Under the pieces are notes generated by a model, which was not told the DNA's origin, did not search any database, and saw nothing but the letters and a program-made list of their open reading frames with translations. Of a stretch of 64,000 nucleotides of DNA, positions 52,025 to 56,031 are shown piece by piece; the stretch's first letter is position 1, and each line of letters opens with the position of its first letter. The position numbers and the translations under genes were made by a program. The DNA comes from Armatimonadota bacterium (lineage in GTDB: Bacteria > Sysuimicrobiota > Sysuimicrobiia > Sysuimicrobiales > Sysuimicrobiaceae): assembly GCA_025059775.1 (NCBI GenBank), contig JANXCW010000002.1:62001-126000 (forward strand), read 5' to 3'.

Positions 52025-53026
52025 ATGCCGACCCTGGCCCTCGTGGGAGACGTGATGCTGGGCCGCGGGGTCAACGTCCTGATCCCGCGTCGGTCCCCCG
52101 AGTGGTTTTGGGGAGATGTGCTGCCCGTGCTTCGGGCGGCGGATGCGGTGCTTGCAAATCTGGAGTGTGCCCTCACCACGCACCGCCGCCCGTGGAGGAA
52201 GACCCCCAAGGTCTTCCACTTCCGCGCAGATCCCGCGGCGGTAGAGGTCCTCCGGGCCGGGGGAATCCGGTGCGTGAGCCTCGCGAACAACCATGTGCTG
52301 GACTACGACGTCCCGGGTCTGCTGGACACCCTCCGGTACCTGGACGAGGCGGGCATCGCGCATGCGGGCGCGGGCCGCAACCGGGAGGAGGCGGAAGCCC
52401 CGGCCCTGATGGAGGTGGGAGGGATCCGGGTGGGCGTTCTCTCCGCCACGGACAACGAGCCCCCCTTCGCCGCAGGACCGGACGAGCCGGGCACCAACTA
52501 CCTGGAGATCCGGACGGACCCCGACACCCTGGGCCGCGTGGAGGGCTGGATCGCCCGGGCCCGCCAGGCCGGTGCGCAGCTCGTGGTGCTCTCCCTCCAC
52601 TGGGGTCCCAACATGGTTCTCGTCCCCCCCTCCCCCTTCCGGGCCTTCGCCCGGGAGGTGACCCGCCGGGGTGTGGACCTGGTGCACGGGCACTCCGCCC
52701 ACGTCTTCCAGGGGGTGGAACGGTTCGGCCGCCGGCTCGTGCTCTACGACACGGGGGACTTCCTGGACGACTACGCGGTAGACCCGGAACTGCGCAACGA
52801 CTGGTCCTTTGTGTTCCTCGTGGAATTCGATGCCACCACCCTCCGCCGTCTGCAGCTCGTTCCCGTGCGGCTACACTACGCCCGGGTGACGCTCGCCCAA
52901 GGGGAGGAGTTCGCCGCCATCTGCCAGCGCATGAAGGTCCTCTCCGCCGCCTTCGGCACCCACCTCCGGCAGACTCCGGCCGGCCTGGAGCTCCTGCTGG
53001 CAGAGGCGGGATCTCAGGCGAGGTAG
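52025..53026 (+). CDS. CapA/PgsA-family metallophosphatase-like protein
   Basis: The 333-residue product belongs to the family of PgsA/CapA, known for poly-gamma-glutamate export in Bacillus, but most members have no proven role. Motifs are GDVMLGRGV (8-16), ANLECALT, SLANNHVLDYD, SLHWGPNM and VHGHSAHVFQG, which match the calcineurin-like metal site. There is no signal peptide or membrane anchor, unlike true PgsA, so a cytoplasmic phosphatase role is more likely. The ATG has no ribosome binding site. The last 13 bases overlap the convergent eRF1-like gene. No other capsule genes are near. Confidence 0.85.
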   Translation: MPTLALVGDVMLGRGVNVLIPRRSPEWFWGDVLPVLRAADAVLANLECALTTHRRPWRKTPKVFHFRADPAAVEVLRAGGIRCVSLANNHVLDYDVPGLLDTLRYLDEAGIAHAGAGRNREEAEAPALMEVGGIRVGVLSATDNEPPFAAGPDEPGTNYLEIRTDPDTLGRVEGWIARARQAGAQLVVLSLHWGPNMVLVPPSPFRAFAREVTRRGVDLVHGHSAHVFQGVERFGRRLVLYDTGDFLDDYAVDPELRNDWSFVFLVEFDATTLRRLQLVPVRLHYARVTLAQGEEFAAICQRMKVLSAAFGTHLRQTPAGLELLLAEAGSQAR

Positions 53027-54174
53027 CGGAGCAGGGCGCCGATGCCGCCGTGCAACCGCAGGATGGGTTGCGGGTTGACGAGCTCGATTCCCGCGTGGTT
53101 GCGATGCGCAAGAAGGGGCAACACCTGCGTGAGCCAGGTGCGCATCATCACCGCCCCACACACGGGACAGATCTCGGCGGGCCGGGCGCTTACGTATCCG
53201 CAGCCCGGGCACTCCACCACCTCCGCCTCCAGTTCCCGGTCCACCACCAGCAGCTGCACCTGCCGCCGTACGAGGGCCTCCAGGGTGGAGGCCAGTCCCA
53301 GAACCCCTCTCCCCTGGCCGCTCCGATCCACCAGCTCCTGAACCCGCTCCGCCTCGCGCTGACGCTCCGCCTGCCGCGCCACCTCCAGGACCCGCTCCCG
53401 GATCTGCGGCCATTCCTCAAGGGGCGAGGGGAGAGGCACGACCGCCACCACCTTCCGGGCTGCGGATTCGGGGAGCTGATCCCGGACGGCGAAGGCCGCC
53501 TCCTCCGGTCCACCGAGGAGGAGCCGTTCGATTCGCCGCTCCTCCACGAACCGCGCGGCCGCGTCCGCCACCCCCGTCCAGAACCGGCGCAGATGGTCGT
53601 CCACCCGGGCCTCGAAGGTGTCCCGCTGGGCGCCCCGGGTGGCCCCTGTCCCTAGGCGTCCGGTAAAGGTGGGGGGGCGCCCCGCGGTGAACCGCCAGCT
53701 GGTGGTATCCAGTTCCAGGGTCTCCTCCTCGATCAGGCTCGCGGATCCGAGGTAGGCCACGAGCAGCCGTGCGTGGTCCCGGTGCACGATGAGGATGGCG
53801 TGGGGCTCGTACTCGTCCATGGCCCACAGGAGGGGCCACACGTCCGGCCGGCCGTAGCGGACCCGGTTCAGAAGCGGCACGGGAAGCACGTACTCCCGCC
53901 AGAGATCCGAGGCCGCGAAGAGGGCGAGGCCTCGTCCCTGCAGCCGGCTGTCCCGAAGGTACTGGACGATCCGGTCGGCCACCTCCTTGGCCGACCGCCG
54001 TTCCTCCCTGGGGAGCTGCTCCACCACCTCGTGCAGGGCGTGCCGCGCCCAGATGCGCCAGGCGGGCTCAGGCCGCTGGTTTTCAGGCTTGGTGGGATCC
54101 ACATCCAGGCAGATGGAGAGCACGTCCCGCCGGGACAGGCTCACGAGGTTCTCCAGATCCCCAGCCTCGAGCAT
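53014..54174 (-). CDS. Bacterial eRF1/Vms1-like protein with zinc ribbon
   Basis: The 386 residues resemble bacterial and archaeal eRF1-family (baeRF/VLRF1) proteins. The N-terminal part has SICLDVDPTKPENQ. The middle contains a loop rich in Gly and Thr with GAQ (181-183), where eRF1 proteins carry GGQ. An eRF1 domain-3-like alpha/beta unit with LLLGGPEEAAFAV (about 218-230) follows, then a helical stretch. A C4 zinc ribbon sits at Cys322, 325, 336 and 339. Related proteins release peptides from stalled ribosomes (Vms1/VLRF1); whether this one does is inference. The start ATG follows GGAGG by six bases and a palindromic promoter element. Confidence 0.75.
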   Translation of the reverse strand: MLEAGDLENLVSLSRRDVLSICLDVDPTKPENQRPEPAWRIWARHALHEVVEQLPREERRSAKEVADRIVQYLRDSRLQGRGLALFAASDLWREYVLPVPLLNRVRYGRPDVWPLLWAMDEYEPHAILIVHRDHARLLVAYLGSASLIEEETLELDTTSWRFTAGRPPTFTGRLGTGATRGAQRDTFEARVDDHLRRFWTGVADAAARFVEERRIERLLLGGPEEAAFAVRDQLPESAARKVVAVVPLPSPLEEWPQIRERVLEVARQAERQREAERVQELVDRSGQGRGVLGLASTLEALVRRQVQLLVVDRELEAEVVECPGCGYVSARPAEICPVCGAVMMRTWLTQVLPLLAHRNHAGIELVNPQPILRLHGGIGALLRYLA

Positions 54175-54203
54175 GTCTCACCTCCGAAGCCGTACCATGC
54201 CTC

Positions 54204-54237
54204 GGAACAGTATCTTCACTGTTCCCTCCGTGCGCAA
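54204..54237 (-). promoter_or_regulatory. Promoter with palindromic operator before the eRF1-like gene
   Basis: A perfect eight-base inverted repeat, GGAACAGT-N6-ACTGTTCC (54204-54225), covers a GATACT -10 (54209-54214, minus strand). A TTGCGC -35 lies 17 bases upstream (54232-54237). There is no U tract, so it is not a terminator of the alcohol dehydrogenase gene. It looks like a repressor operator, but I do not recognise the regulator. Confidence 0.55.
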
Positions 54238-54243
54238 GAGCGT

Positions 54244-55236
54244 TCAGGTCCGCACCACGAGGACCGCGGCCCCGCGGCGAATGCGGCCAAGGCGGAGATC
54301 CTCCAGGGCCCGGTTGGCCTCCTCCAGGGGATACGGCTGCACCTCCGTGCGTACGGGCACCTGAGGGGCCAAGCGCAGGAACTCCTCTCCGTCACGCCGG
54401 GTGAGGTTGGCCACACTCCGGAGCACCCGCTCGCGCCACAAGAGCTCATAGGGGAACGAGGGGATAGCTGTCATGTGGATCCCGCCGCACACCACCACCC
54501 CGCCCGGAGCCACGGCCCGGAGGGCCAGGGGCACCAGCTCCCCTGCGGGGGCAAAGAGGATGGCGGCATCCAGCTCTTCCGGAGGTGACTGCGTGCTATC
54601 CCCGGCCCAGACCGCGCCCAGCTCCAAGGCAAACCGCTGGGCATCGAGGTCCCCAGGCCTCGTGAAGGCGAACACCCGCCGTCCCTGGTATCGGGCCACC
54701 TGGGTCAGGATGTGGGCGGCGGCTCCGAACCCGTAAATCCCCAGGCGCTCCGCGTCCCCGGTCATGCGGAGGCATCGGTAGCCGATGAGCCCCGCGCACA
54801 GCAGCGGGGCGGCCTCCAGATCCGGGTACGCCCCGGGAATCGGGAAGCAGTAGCGGGCGTCCGCCACCACGTACTCCGCATACCCTCCGTCCAGGTGATA
54901 CCCGGTGAAGCGCGCGTGGGGGCACAGGTTCTCCTGTCCCCGCCGGCAGTACCGGCACTCCCCGCAGGTCCAACCCAGCCAGGGGACCCCGACCCGGTCT
55001 CCCTCCTGAATCCCTCCCACGCCTTCTCCTACCTGCACCACGGTCCCCACGATCTGGTGTCCAAGTACGAGGGGGAGCCTGGGATTTGCGAGTTCCCCCT
55101 GCAGGATGTGAAGGTCCGTGCGACAGACTCCGCACGCATGCACCCGGAGGAGCACCTGGCCCCTAAGAGGGAGGAGGATCTCCCGCTCCACCAGCTGGAG
55201 GGGGGAGCGGAGATCCGGCAGAACCATAGCCCGCAT
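54244..55236 (-). CDS. Zinc-dependent alcohol dehydrogenase, MDR family
   Basis: The product of 330 residues is an NAD(P)-dependent medium-chain dehydrogenase. Catalytic zinc ligands are Cys38, His60 and Cys147; the structural zinc ligands are Cys91, 94, 97 and 105. The coenzyme-binding motif is GIYGFGAAAH (166-175). The pattern fits AdhP/AdhT-like alcohol dehydrogenases of thermophilic bacilli. The start ATG 55236 lies behind an AGGAGCTGGGAAG stretch; ATG 55227 is an alternative. A longer frame to 55359 is a translation of the tRNA-Pro gene and not real. Confidence 0.9.
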   Translation of the reverse strand: MRAMVLPDLRSPLQLVEREILLPLRGQVLLRVHACGVCRTDLHILQGELANPRLPLVLGHQIVGTVVQVGEGVGGIQEGDRVGVPWLGWTCGECRYCRRGQENLCPHARFTGYHLDGGYAEYVVADARYCFPIPGAYPDLEAAPLLCAGLIGYRCLRMTGDAERLGIYGFGAAAHILTQVARYQGRRVFAFTRPGDLDAQRFALELGAVWAGDSTQSPPEELDAAILFAPAGELVPLALRAVAPGGVVVCGGIHMTAIPSFPYELLWRERVLRSVANLTRRDGEEFLRLAPQVPVRTEVQPYPLEEANRALEDLRLGRIRRGAAVLVVRT

Positions 55237-55288
55237 GGTCTTCCCAGCTCCTGGGGGCAAGCGGTCTGAGCACGAAGAGGACCGCATC

Positions 55289-55365
55289 TGGTCGGGCCGG
55301 CCGGATTTGAACCGGCGACCTCCTGAACCCCATTCAGGTGCGCTCCCAGGCTGCGCCACGGCCCG
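55289..55365 (-). tRNA. tRNA-Pro (anticodon GGG)
   Basis: This 77-base minus-strand tRNA has acceptor arms CGGGCCG and CGGCCCG, an encoded CCA and the anticodon stem CCTGA/TCAGG around loop ATGGGGT. The T arm GGTTCAAATCC is standard. It reads CCC and CCU codons. An extended -10 promoter lies just upstream. Confidence 0.97.
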
Positions 55366-55379
55366 ATGCGGCTAGGAGG

Positions 55380-55388
55380 ATTATATCA
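55380..55388 (-). promoter_or_regulatory. Extended -10 promoter of tRNA-Pro
   Basis: TGA-TATAAT on the minus strand lies 14 bases before the mature tRNA 5' end, a perfect -10 with an extended TG. The same AT-rich bases precede the divergent DUF2939 gene. Confidence 0.65.
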
Positions 55389-55401
55389 TGGAGGCTGCAG
55401 C

Positions 55402-56031
55402 ATGCGGGTGGTGCGTACCATCGCCCTAGCAGGAATCGCCCTGGTGCTCCTCGCGGGCATGGGCTCTCTGCGCAGGAGCCCCTACCCCGATATGATCGGC
55501 CTCGCCCACGCCCTCCGGTCAGGGGATCCTGAGGCGGCGCTCCGATGGATCCATCTCCCCTCCCTCGCCGCCTCCGTGGTGGACGTGCTCGAGGAGACCT
55601 GGGTTGCCGGCCGCATGGGAGATCCTGCCCACTATCCCCTTTCCCCCTTGCTCCGCCCGTTCTTCCAGGCCGCCTTCGGCCTTGCCCGACCTCTCGCCCA
55701 GAAACGGGTGGAGGAGGAGATCCGGGAACTGGTGCGCAGGGTGGCCCTCGGTGCCCCGGATGCCCCCGTGCACCTGCCCCGGTGGGGCGGCCTTCCCGTT
55801 GCCGCGGCCGCGGTTCTCGCTTTCGTGCGATTCGAGGCGCTCCCCGAGGGAAAGGTCCGGATGTCCGTGGTGGATTCCTCCCCTCCCCTTCAGCTCCTCC
55901 TCGATTATGCCCACGGTCGGTGGGTCATCGTGGCCGTGGACCGCGCCTGGCTTCAGCAAGTTCTTCTCCAGCAGCCGACCCCCACCCGTCCGAGTTCGTC
56001 GCCCCCAACGCTTCCCCGTCCCTCCCGCTAA
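55402..56031 (+). CDS. DUF2939-like membrane-anchored or secreted protein
   Basis: The 209-residue product starts at ATG 55402 with GGAGG seven bases upstream. Residues 1-22 form a signal or anchor helix. The following SPYPDMIGLAHALRSGDPEAALRWIHLPSL matches the DUF2939 pattern in pieces (a short helix pair, then a charged strand), though the family has no known function. The C terminus is a Pro/Thr/Ser-rich tail. The stop overlaps that of the convergent pilC by four bases. The frame opening at 55366 includes tRNA-side sequence and is not used. Confidence 0.65.
   Translation: MRVVRTIALAGIALVLLAGMGSLRRSPYPDMIGLAHALRSGDPEAALRWIHLPSLAASVVDVLEETWVAGRMGDPAHYPLSPLLRPFFQAAFGLARPLAQKRVEEEIRELVRRVALGAPDAPVHLPRWGGLPVAAAAVLAFVRFEALPEGKVRMSVVDSSPPLQLLLDYAHGRWVIVAVDRAWLQQVLLQQPTPTRPSSSPPTLPRPSR

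Follow-up and report, generated by a model that had tools for sequence, protein, structure and literature searches.

A bacterial relative of eRF1, most like Balon, carries a loop glutamine limited to its phylum

Does a GAQ triplet, in a bacterial relative of eRF1 and at the place where eRF1 has GGQ, denote peptide release? The question is raised by an open reading frame in the window analysed here, a stretch of 64,000 nucleotides from an Armatimonadota bacterium (assembly GCA_025059775.1, contig JANXCW010000002.1). A preliminary description had read the product as an eRF1/Vms1-like protein and placed its gene at 53014-54174; these coordinates are correct, and translation of the window supplied the strand, which that description lacked. 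The frame lies on the minus strand, encodes 386 amino acids from an ATG and contains one stop, which is terminal, while the plus strand has an internal stop across the same interval. Just before the ATG at 54174, the Shine-Dalgarno-like element GGAGGTGA (54178-54185, minus strand) would, as read from the sequence, make a good ribosome-binding site for the frame. In a search of 61 genomes the protein was matched in 24, counting that of the window (a genus neighbour shares 87% identity), and it matches the Pfam family PF18854 at E 1.8e-24, indicating that the frame has not arisen by chance. A protein search of its own genome found one copy only, and a tblastn search for plasmid copies returned one weak partial match.

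Upstream on the same strand lies an adh_fam_2 gene (TIGR02822, 359.9 bits; 54244-55359, minus strand) for a zinc-type alcohol dehydrogenase, a possible operon partner. The same neighbour was found on the same strand at five of the 23 loci of the phylum clade described below (L001, L002, L006, L008 and L009), all from the window's own family, and we therefore draw no functional link. As listed, the dehydrogenase frame starts inside a tRNA-Pro gene (ggg; 55289-55365, minus strand), and its true start is probably further in. On the other side, a convergent PGA_cap (CapA-like) gene (52025-53026, plus strand, from the ORF list and annotation) provides context only; its 3′ end overlaps that of the 386-residue frame by 13 bases (53014-53026). 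A scan of 52800-55700 for promoters and terminators found none.

Sequence profiles place the protein in baeRF_family10. The PF18854 match defines its middle domain (residues 110-265; 53380-53847, minus strand) at 87.1 bits, above the gathering cut-off of 27.1 bits, and baeRF_family5 (36.8) and baeRF_family2 (32.5) likewise exceed their own Pfam cut-offs. Among NCBIfam models the MSMEG_1130 hibernation factor (NF052288, covering residues 15-383) ranked first at 91.6 bits, which is far below its equivalog cut-off of 480, followed by Rv2629 (57.3), Balon AOC03_06830 (38.7) and aRF1_eRF1 (TIGR03676; 21.5 against a cut-off of 234.7). The families reported up to an E of 1 included neither a VLRF1 model (Pfam and NCBIfam) nor the Pfam model eRF1_3. 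Msmeg1130 of Mycobacterium smegmatis is itself a PF18854 protein (124.7 bits) and is the closest solved structure by sequence. The view that the role of this group in bacteria is poorly described is thus out of date, since Msmeg1130 is a published hibernation factor (PMC10901736) of the same Pfam family.

An AlphaFold2 model built from 20 aligned sequences (mean pLDDT 87.8, pTM 0.77) and its structure matches bear out the eRF1-like three-domain fold that had been proposed. Confidence fell below a pLDDT of 50 over at least three residues in one segment only, residues 164-180, which form the loop before GAQ. Compared by VIA-align, the model matched Msmeg1130 (PDB 8v9j, 8v9l) with a Z of 30.9 (rmsd 3.6 over 356 residues, 23% identity). 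Balon of Psychrobacter urativorans (AOC03_06830; PDB 8rd8, 8rdv, 8rdw) followed with a Z of ~26 over the full-length fold, although it shares 16-17% identity with the window protein, and Rv2629 with 23.2. Matches to eRF1/aRF1 reached a Z of at most 18.2 and, at full length, had an rmsd of 9 or more, which on this model probably reflects a different domain arrangement. Residues 272-386 matched the eRF1 C domain 5dmr (Z 12.6, 101 residues), supporting the suggested domain-3-like unit, and the C domain of human Pelota 5eo3 (Z 12.9, 90 residues). Structure prediction against Vms1, run as a check on the Vms1/VLRF1 likeness in the preliminary description, favoured Balon instead: Vms1 (6r84) stood at rank 49 in Foldseek (TM 0.24, E 1e-3). 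A Vms1/VLRF1 identity is not supported by this rank or by the profile search. Taken together, the profiles and the model indicate that the protein is a bacterial relative of eRF1 and most like Balon.

The N-terminal domain (approximately residues 1-110; 53845-54174, minus strand) contains neither NIKS nor YxCxxxF. These two motifs and GGQ are the motifs of the eRF1/aRF1 termination factors, and none of the three was present in any of the 21 members scanned of the 23-member clade. At the other end, the L7Ae/eRF1-domain-3-like domain (approximately residues 268-386; 53017-53373, minus strand; matches to 5dmr_B, 5eo3_A and 2ktu) carries an inserted C4 zinc ribbon (residues 322-339; 53158-53211, minus strand), seen as C322-x2-C325-x10-C336-x2-C339 in agreement with the earlier account. 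All four cysteines are kept in 19/23 clade members; the ribbon has been cleanly excised in L012 and L021, and the C-terminal part is missing in L018 and L022. The ribbon therefore seems dispensable. L012 and L021, without a ribbon, also stand apart in the tree. Alignments set the ribbon on that of archaeal aRF1, at the same insertion point, and on a cysteine-free insert in the C domain of Msmeg1130. The hairpin by which Balon contacts EF-Tu lies at the place of this insert, according to PMC10901736. No such beta-hairpin insertion was found in the window protein; the C4 ribbon stands there and may touch EF-Tu. The outgroup proteins L034, L036 and L038 keep the ribbon and have no glutamine at the position of Gln183, so that ribbon and glutamine are not tied.

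The GAQ triplet (residues 181-183; 53626-53634, minus strand) directly follows the low-confidence loop and is embedded, as originally noted, in a Gly/Thr-rich stretch, TFTGRLGTGATRGAQ. In the alignment of the 23 clade members from the window's phylum, R180 and G181 are invariant (23/23 each) and Q183 is kept in 20/23, being replaced by Glu in L005 and L016 and by Ala in L018. Residue 182 is Ala in 11, Ser in one and Thr, Val, Arg, Ile or Glu in the other 11, and the exact triplet GAQ is present in 11/23; within the clade, conservation equals or exceeds that of Q183 at 80 of the 386 positions. Among the nearest outgroup relatives the same column holds Gln in 0/16 and Asn in nine, seven of which are closely similar, L091-like proteins, and the 16 rows thus represent fewer than 16 independent cases. 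Conservation of Gln183, put forward as a test of the GAQ assignment, was therefore found within the phylum but not in its nearest neighbours. A well-conserved loop glutamine has been reported for family 10 (PMC6514570), and other groups of the family have theirs within GGxSQ. The arginine of the following helix, R190, is present in 23/23 clade members and in 15/16 outgroup proteins. The end of the last strand is separated from R190 by 37 residues in 22/23 clade members, against 22 to 44 in the outgroups, and by the loop-length criterion of PMC6514570 this near-fixed stretch points to an active loop.

The register of the loop is less favourable to a homologue of GGQ. Gly-181 aligned with a glycine of GGQ, as expected if GAQ stands in place of that motif, but Gln-183 reached the eRF1 glutamine only when one residue was omitted ahead of the next helix: for human eRF1, both HHalign and hmmsearch matched RGxQ to RGGQ only by opening a single gap downstream, and hmmsearch against archaeal aRF1, without a gap, set Gln-183 on the serine after GGQ. 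In the profile alignment with the GGWSQ group of family 10, Gln183 fell in a gap. In a manual count back from F187, in the helix that follows, the position of the glutamine is -4 for the window protein, -5 for eRF1 and -3 for the GGWSQ group. The loop itself reads TRGAQ, with glycine at Gln minus 2, and conforms to neither GxuQ nor GGxSQ. In VLRF-1 proteins the catalytic glutamine is preceded by a nearly invariant tiny residue, as stated in PMC6514570; in the window clade Ala or Ser precedes it in only 12/23. Reading GAQ as a sign of peptide release is doubtful on these grounds, the 20/23 conservation of Gln183 notwithstanding, and GAQ as a simple homologue of GGQ became doubtful after the outgroup check and the profile alignments.

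The history of the glutamine was followed in trees drawn from the 146 distinct proteins that the 183 matching loci encode. A first, rapid tree (108 rows) left out proteins shorter than 335 residues or more than 75% identical to one already kept, and included Msmeg1130 and two fragments; 69 of its rows, picked by hand, were used for a second, unrooted tree with the loop columns excluded, in which the bootstrap had not settled. In the 69-row tree the clade is separate (17 rows, 100/99) within groups of 23 rows (100/98) and 27 rows (99/93), and none of the remaining 10 rows of the 27-row group has Gln at the Q183 column. The 108-row tree gives the same three groups. In the 69-row tree Msmeg1130 is placed next to the 27-row clade, weakly supported (53/74); in the 108-row tree it falls in the other half. 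For parsimony, Gln states were coded by hand, and Msmeg1130 was omitted or tried both ways. L115, with a glutamine two columns further on (GGGHQH), and L107 (RGQQ, outside the clade) were coded as lacking Gln; the L091-like loops have a glutamine six residues earlier (RAQAMGN). An ancestor without the loop glutamine was preferred for both the 27-row group (9 vs 11 changes) and the 23-row group (9 vs 10), and the contrast shrank to 10 vs 11 for both when Msmeg1130 was coded as Gln. Register and parsimony thus argue mildly, by one or two steps, against homology of the glutamines; as judged from sequence, unbroken inheritance of Gln183 from GGQ is unlikely. The triplet probably marks a branch of its own within the family, and as evidence of release it is not clear.

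Judged by the protein genes sought, there is no obvious gap in ribosome rescue, since the genome contains SmpB, an NFACT (RqcH-type) gene, two S30AE (HPF-type) matches and two genes with an RF-1 domain, which we take to be RF1 and RF2. The second S30AE match is a weak one (G000:C4:6230-6511, 23.8 bits vs a cut-off of 23.7). No stress or HPF gene adjoins the window gene, whose neighbours are adh_fam_2 and CapA. Neighbours were counted around the 146 relatives, mostly within flanks of 1.5 kb, with one representative per cluster checked in Pfam; among the frames in these flanks blastp at E 1e-4 detected no HPF-type neighbour. HtrA-type proteases adjoin nine loci, sigma-70-like proteins four, Hsp20 three and Usp three, and a DnaJ-type gene adjoins seven, six of these among the seven L091-like proteins, which are related to the 27-row group. 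Diacylglycerol-kinase-type (nine loci) and DFP-type (seven) neighbours, without a plain stress role, were also found. L091, L093, L097, L100, L101 and L113 share an AMGNRDRF loop and have no zinc ligands, and the DnaJ-type gene adjoins 6/7 of their group. At L009/L028 (bacterium HR32) the baeRF gene has a radical-SAM-type neighbour that, by eye, seems to contain an intein-like insert after what is presumably its Cys motif.

We consider it reasonably probable that the protein is a Balon-type factor that occupies the ribosomal A site during hibernation, with an archaeal-RF1-like ribbon replacing the EF-Tu hairpin. Most baeRF-1 families have been proposed to be inactive plugs of the A site and family 10 to be possibly active (Burroughs and Aravind 2019, PMC6514570), and Msmeg1130 has been shown in the A site with EF-Tu and is described as having neither GGQ nor NIKS (Helena-Bueno et al. 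2024, PMC10901736). By analogy, the window protein would most likely sit tRNA-like in a vacant A site. Its N domain would lie at the decoding centre and read no codon, the middle-domain loop and the arginine-bearing helix would rest against the peptidyl-transferase centre, and the L7Ae-like C domain would face EF-Tu with the C4 ribbon in place of the Balon hairpin. The net effect would be to block and protect ribosomes during stress. This reading is favoured by PF18854, the NCBIfam order, the fold match to Msmeg1130 and the membership of Msmeg1130 in PF18854 despite its own loop, RAGQ. It is also favoured by the absence of Gln183 from the outgroups, a residue 182 that is not tiny in 11/23, the conserved R190, the parsimony result, the rescue genes already present and the DnaJ, Hsp20, Usp and HtrA genes beside some relatives. 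Against it stand a score far under the equivalog cut-off, the unsettled tree position of Msmeg1130, a ribbon where the published hairpin would be, the constancy of RG, Q and loop length within the clade, the lack of a stress or HPF neighbour at the window gene and the equally recurrent non-stress neighbours around relatives.

The same constancy of the loop would be explained if the protein were a peptidyl-tRNA hydrolase of ribosome rescue, in which the RGAQ loop entered the peptidyl-transferase centre and Gln183 placed the water, nascent chains being released with no stop codon read. The archaeal-RF1-like ribbon, the gapped alignment of RGxQ with RGGQ and the naming of family 10 as possibly active (PMC6514570) also suit this explanation, which we nevertheless regard as rather unlikely. 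All 16 nearest outgroups are without the glutamine, three clade members have E or A, fewer than half have the exact triplet, and the glutamine is one residue out of register from the helix; moreover, the hibernation-factor model outscores the aRF1 model, a protein with an RAGQ loop is a published hibernation factor, and SmpB, the RqcH-type gene and two RF-1-domain genes are already at hand. Since that factor belongs to family 10, release cannot be claimed from a GxQ-like loop triplet alone. The two functions could also be combined, one phylum within a Balon-like branch that had lost the catalytic glutamine having regained a fixed-length Arg-Gly-x-Gln loop while keeping the archaeal-type ribbon, so that a hibernation factor with re-evolved peptide release would both park ribosomes and clear nascent chains; the chances of this are small. 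Smaller still are those of a Pelota/Dom34-like factor without catalysis, which would split or recycle stalled ribosomes by opening them with EF-Tu or another GTPase: the superfamily is the same, 5eo3 fits the C-terminal residues and neither a stop-codon motif nor GGQ is present, but the full-length fold is closer to Balon than to Pelota. A role in bacterial quality control as a Vms1/VLRF1-type factor has in its favour the shared superfamily and a distant Foldseek match. It is highly improbable in view of the profile search and the loop motif, and because the window protein keeps the N domain that is said to be missing from acVLRF-1 (PMC6514570).

Comparison with characterised and related proteins delimits the Balon-type reading. 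Msmeg1130 shares PF18854, three full-length domains and a loop glutamine without GGQ, but its C-domain insert has no zinc ligands, and the loop of the window protein is longer and Gly-rich. Psychrobacter Balon has a hairpin instead of the ribbon and a loop without GGQ, as described in PMC10901736. Archaeal aRF1 (4af1) and human eRF1 share the domain order and folds, and aRF1 the insertion point of the ribbon, but not the absence of NIKS, YxCxxxF and GGQ. Chloroflexota family-10 proteins such as L110 share PF18854, three domains and the C4 ribbon, whereas their loop is GGWSQ and L110 scores higher with aRF1_eRF1 (90.7) than with the hibernation factor (67.3), an order opposite to that of the window protein. 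Other GGWSQ proteins are in turn reversed (L072, which also has the ribbon, hibernation 99.1 over 62.5; L135, 65.1 over 23.0), and the split between aRF1-like and hibernation-like scores is not clean. Seven Chloroflexota proteins (L110, L112, L117, L118, L120, L122 and L126) are full-length family-10 members with a GGWSQ/GGWAQ loop and a C4 ribbon; L110, the one scanned of its group, also matches acVLRF1 and eRF1 domain models. As a candidate for a bacterial hydrolase of aeRF1 type that is active, this group ranks above the window protein. L168 (G355, phylum of L034) encodes an aeRF1-type protein whose loop, KGGQSSTRFARIR, is truly GGQ-like.

PF18854 was matched in 24/43 genomes of the window's phylum (23/43 above cut-off), in 123/400 of the phylum of L034, titled Chloroflexi (115 above cut-off), in 8/299 of the phylum of an Ammonifex genome and in 8/14 control genomes (four of these eight being archaea), the archaeal matches probably arising through aRF1. 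Bacterium HR32 and Armatimonadetes CSP1-3 are among the named contigs recovered by alignment; the window's phylum is taken to be that of CSP1-3, now Candidatus Sysuimicrobiota at NCBI, where HR32 is unclassified. Among the papers listed by the literature searches, which extended to few subscription papers, we found no work on family-10 proteins of Sysuimicrobiota.

The protein thus belongs to the Balon side of baeRF_family10, where it is unexceptional yet informative; release activity is possible for it and not the likeliest function. A GxQ triplet in the aeRF1 superfamily is not readable as peptide release without a check of the neighbouring clades. Should release have been regained in this phylum, the clade and its relatives would offer a natural before-and-after series for the regain of hydrolysis in the aeRF1 fold. 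If instead the hibernation reading is true, Balon-type hibernation extends to Candidatus Sysuimicrobiota with the ribbon retained, and this form would serve as a natural control for the role of the EF-Tu hairpin of Balon.
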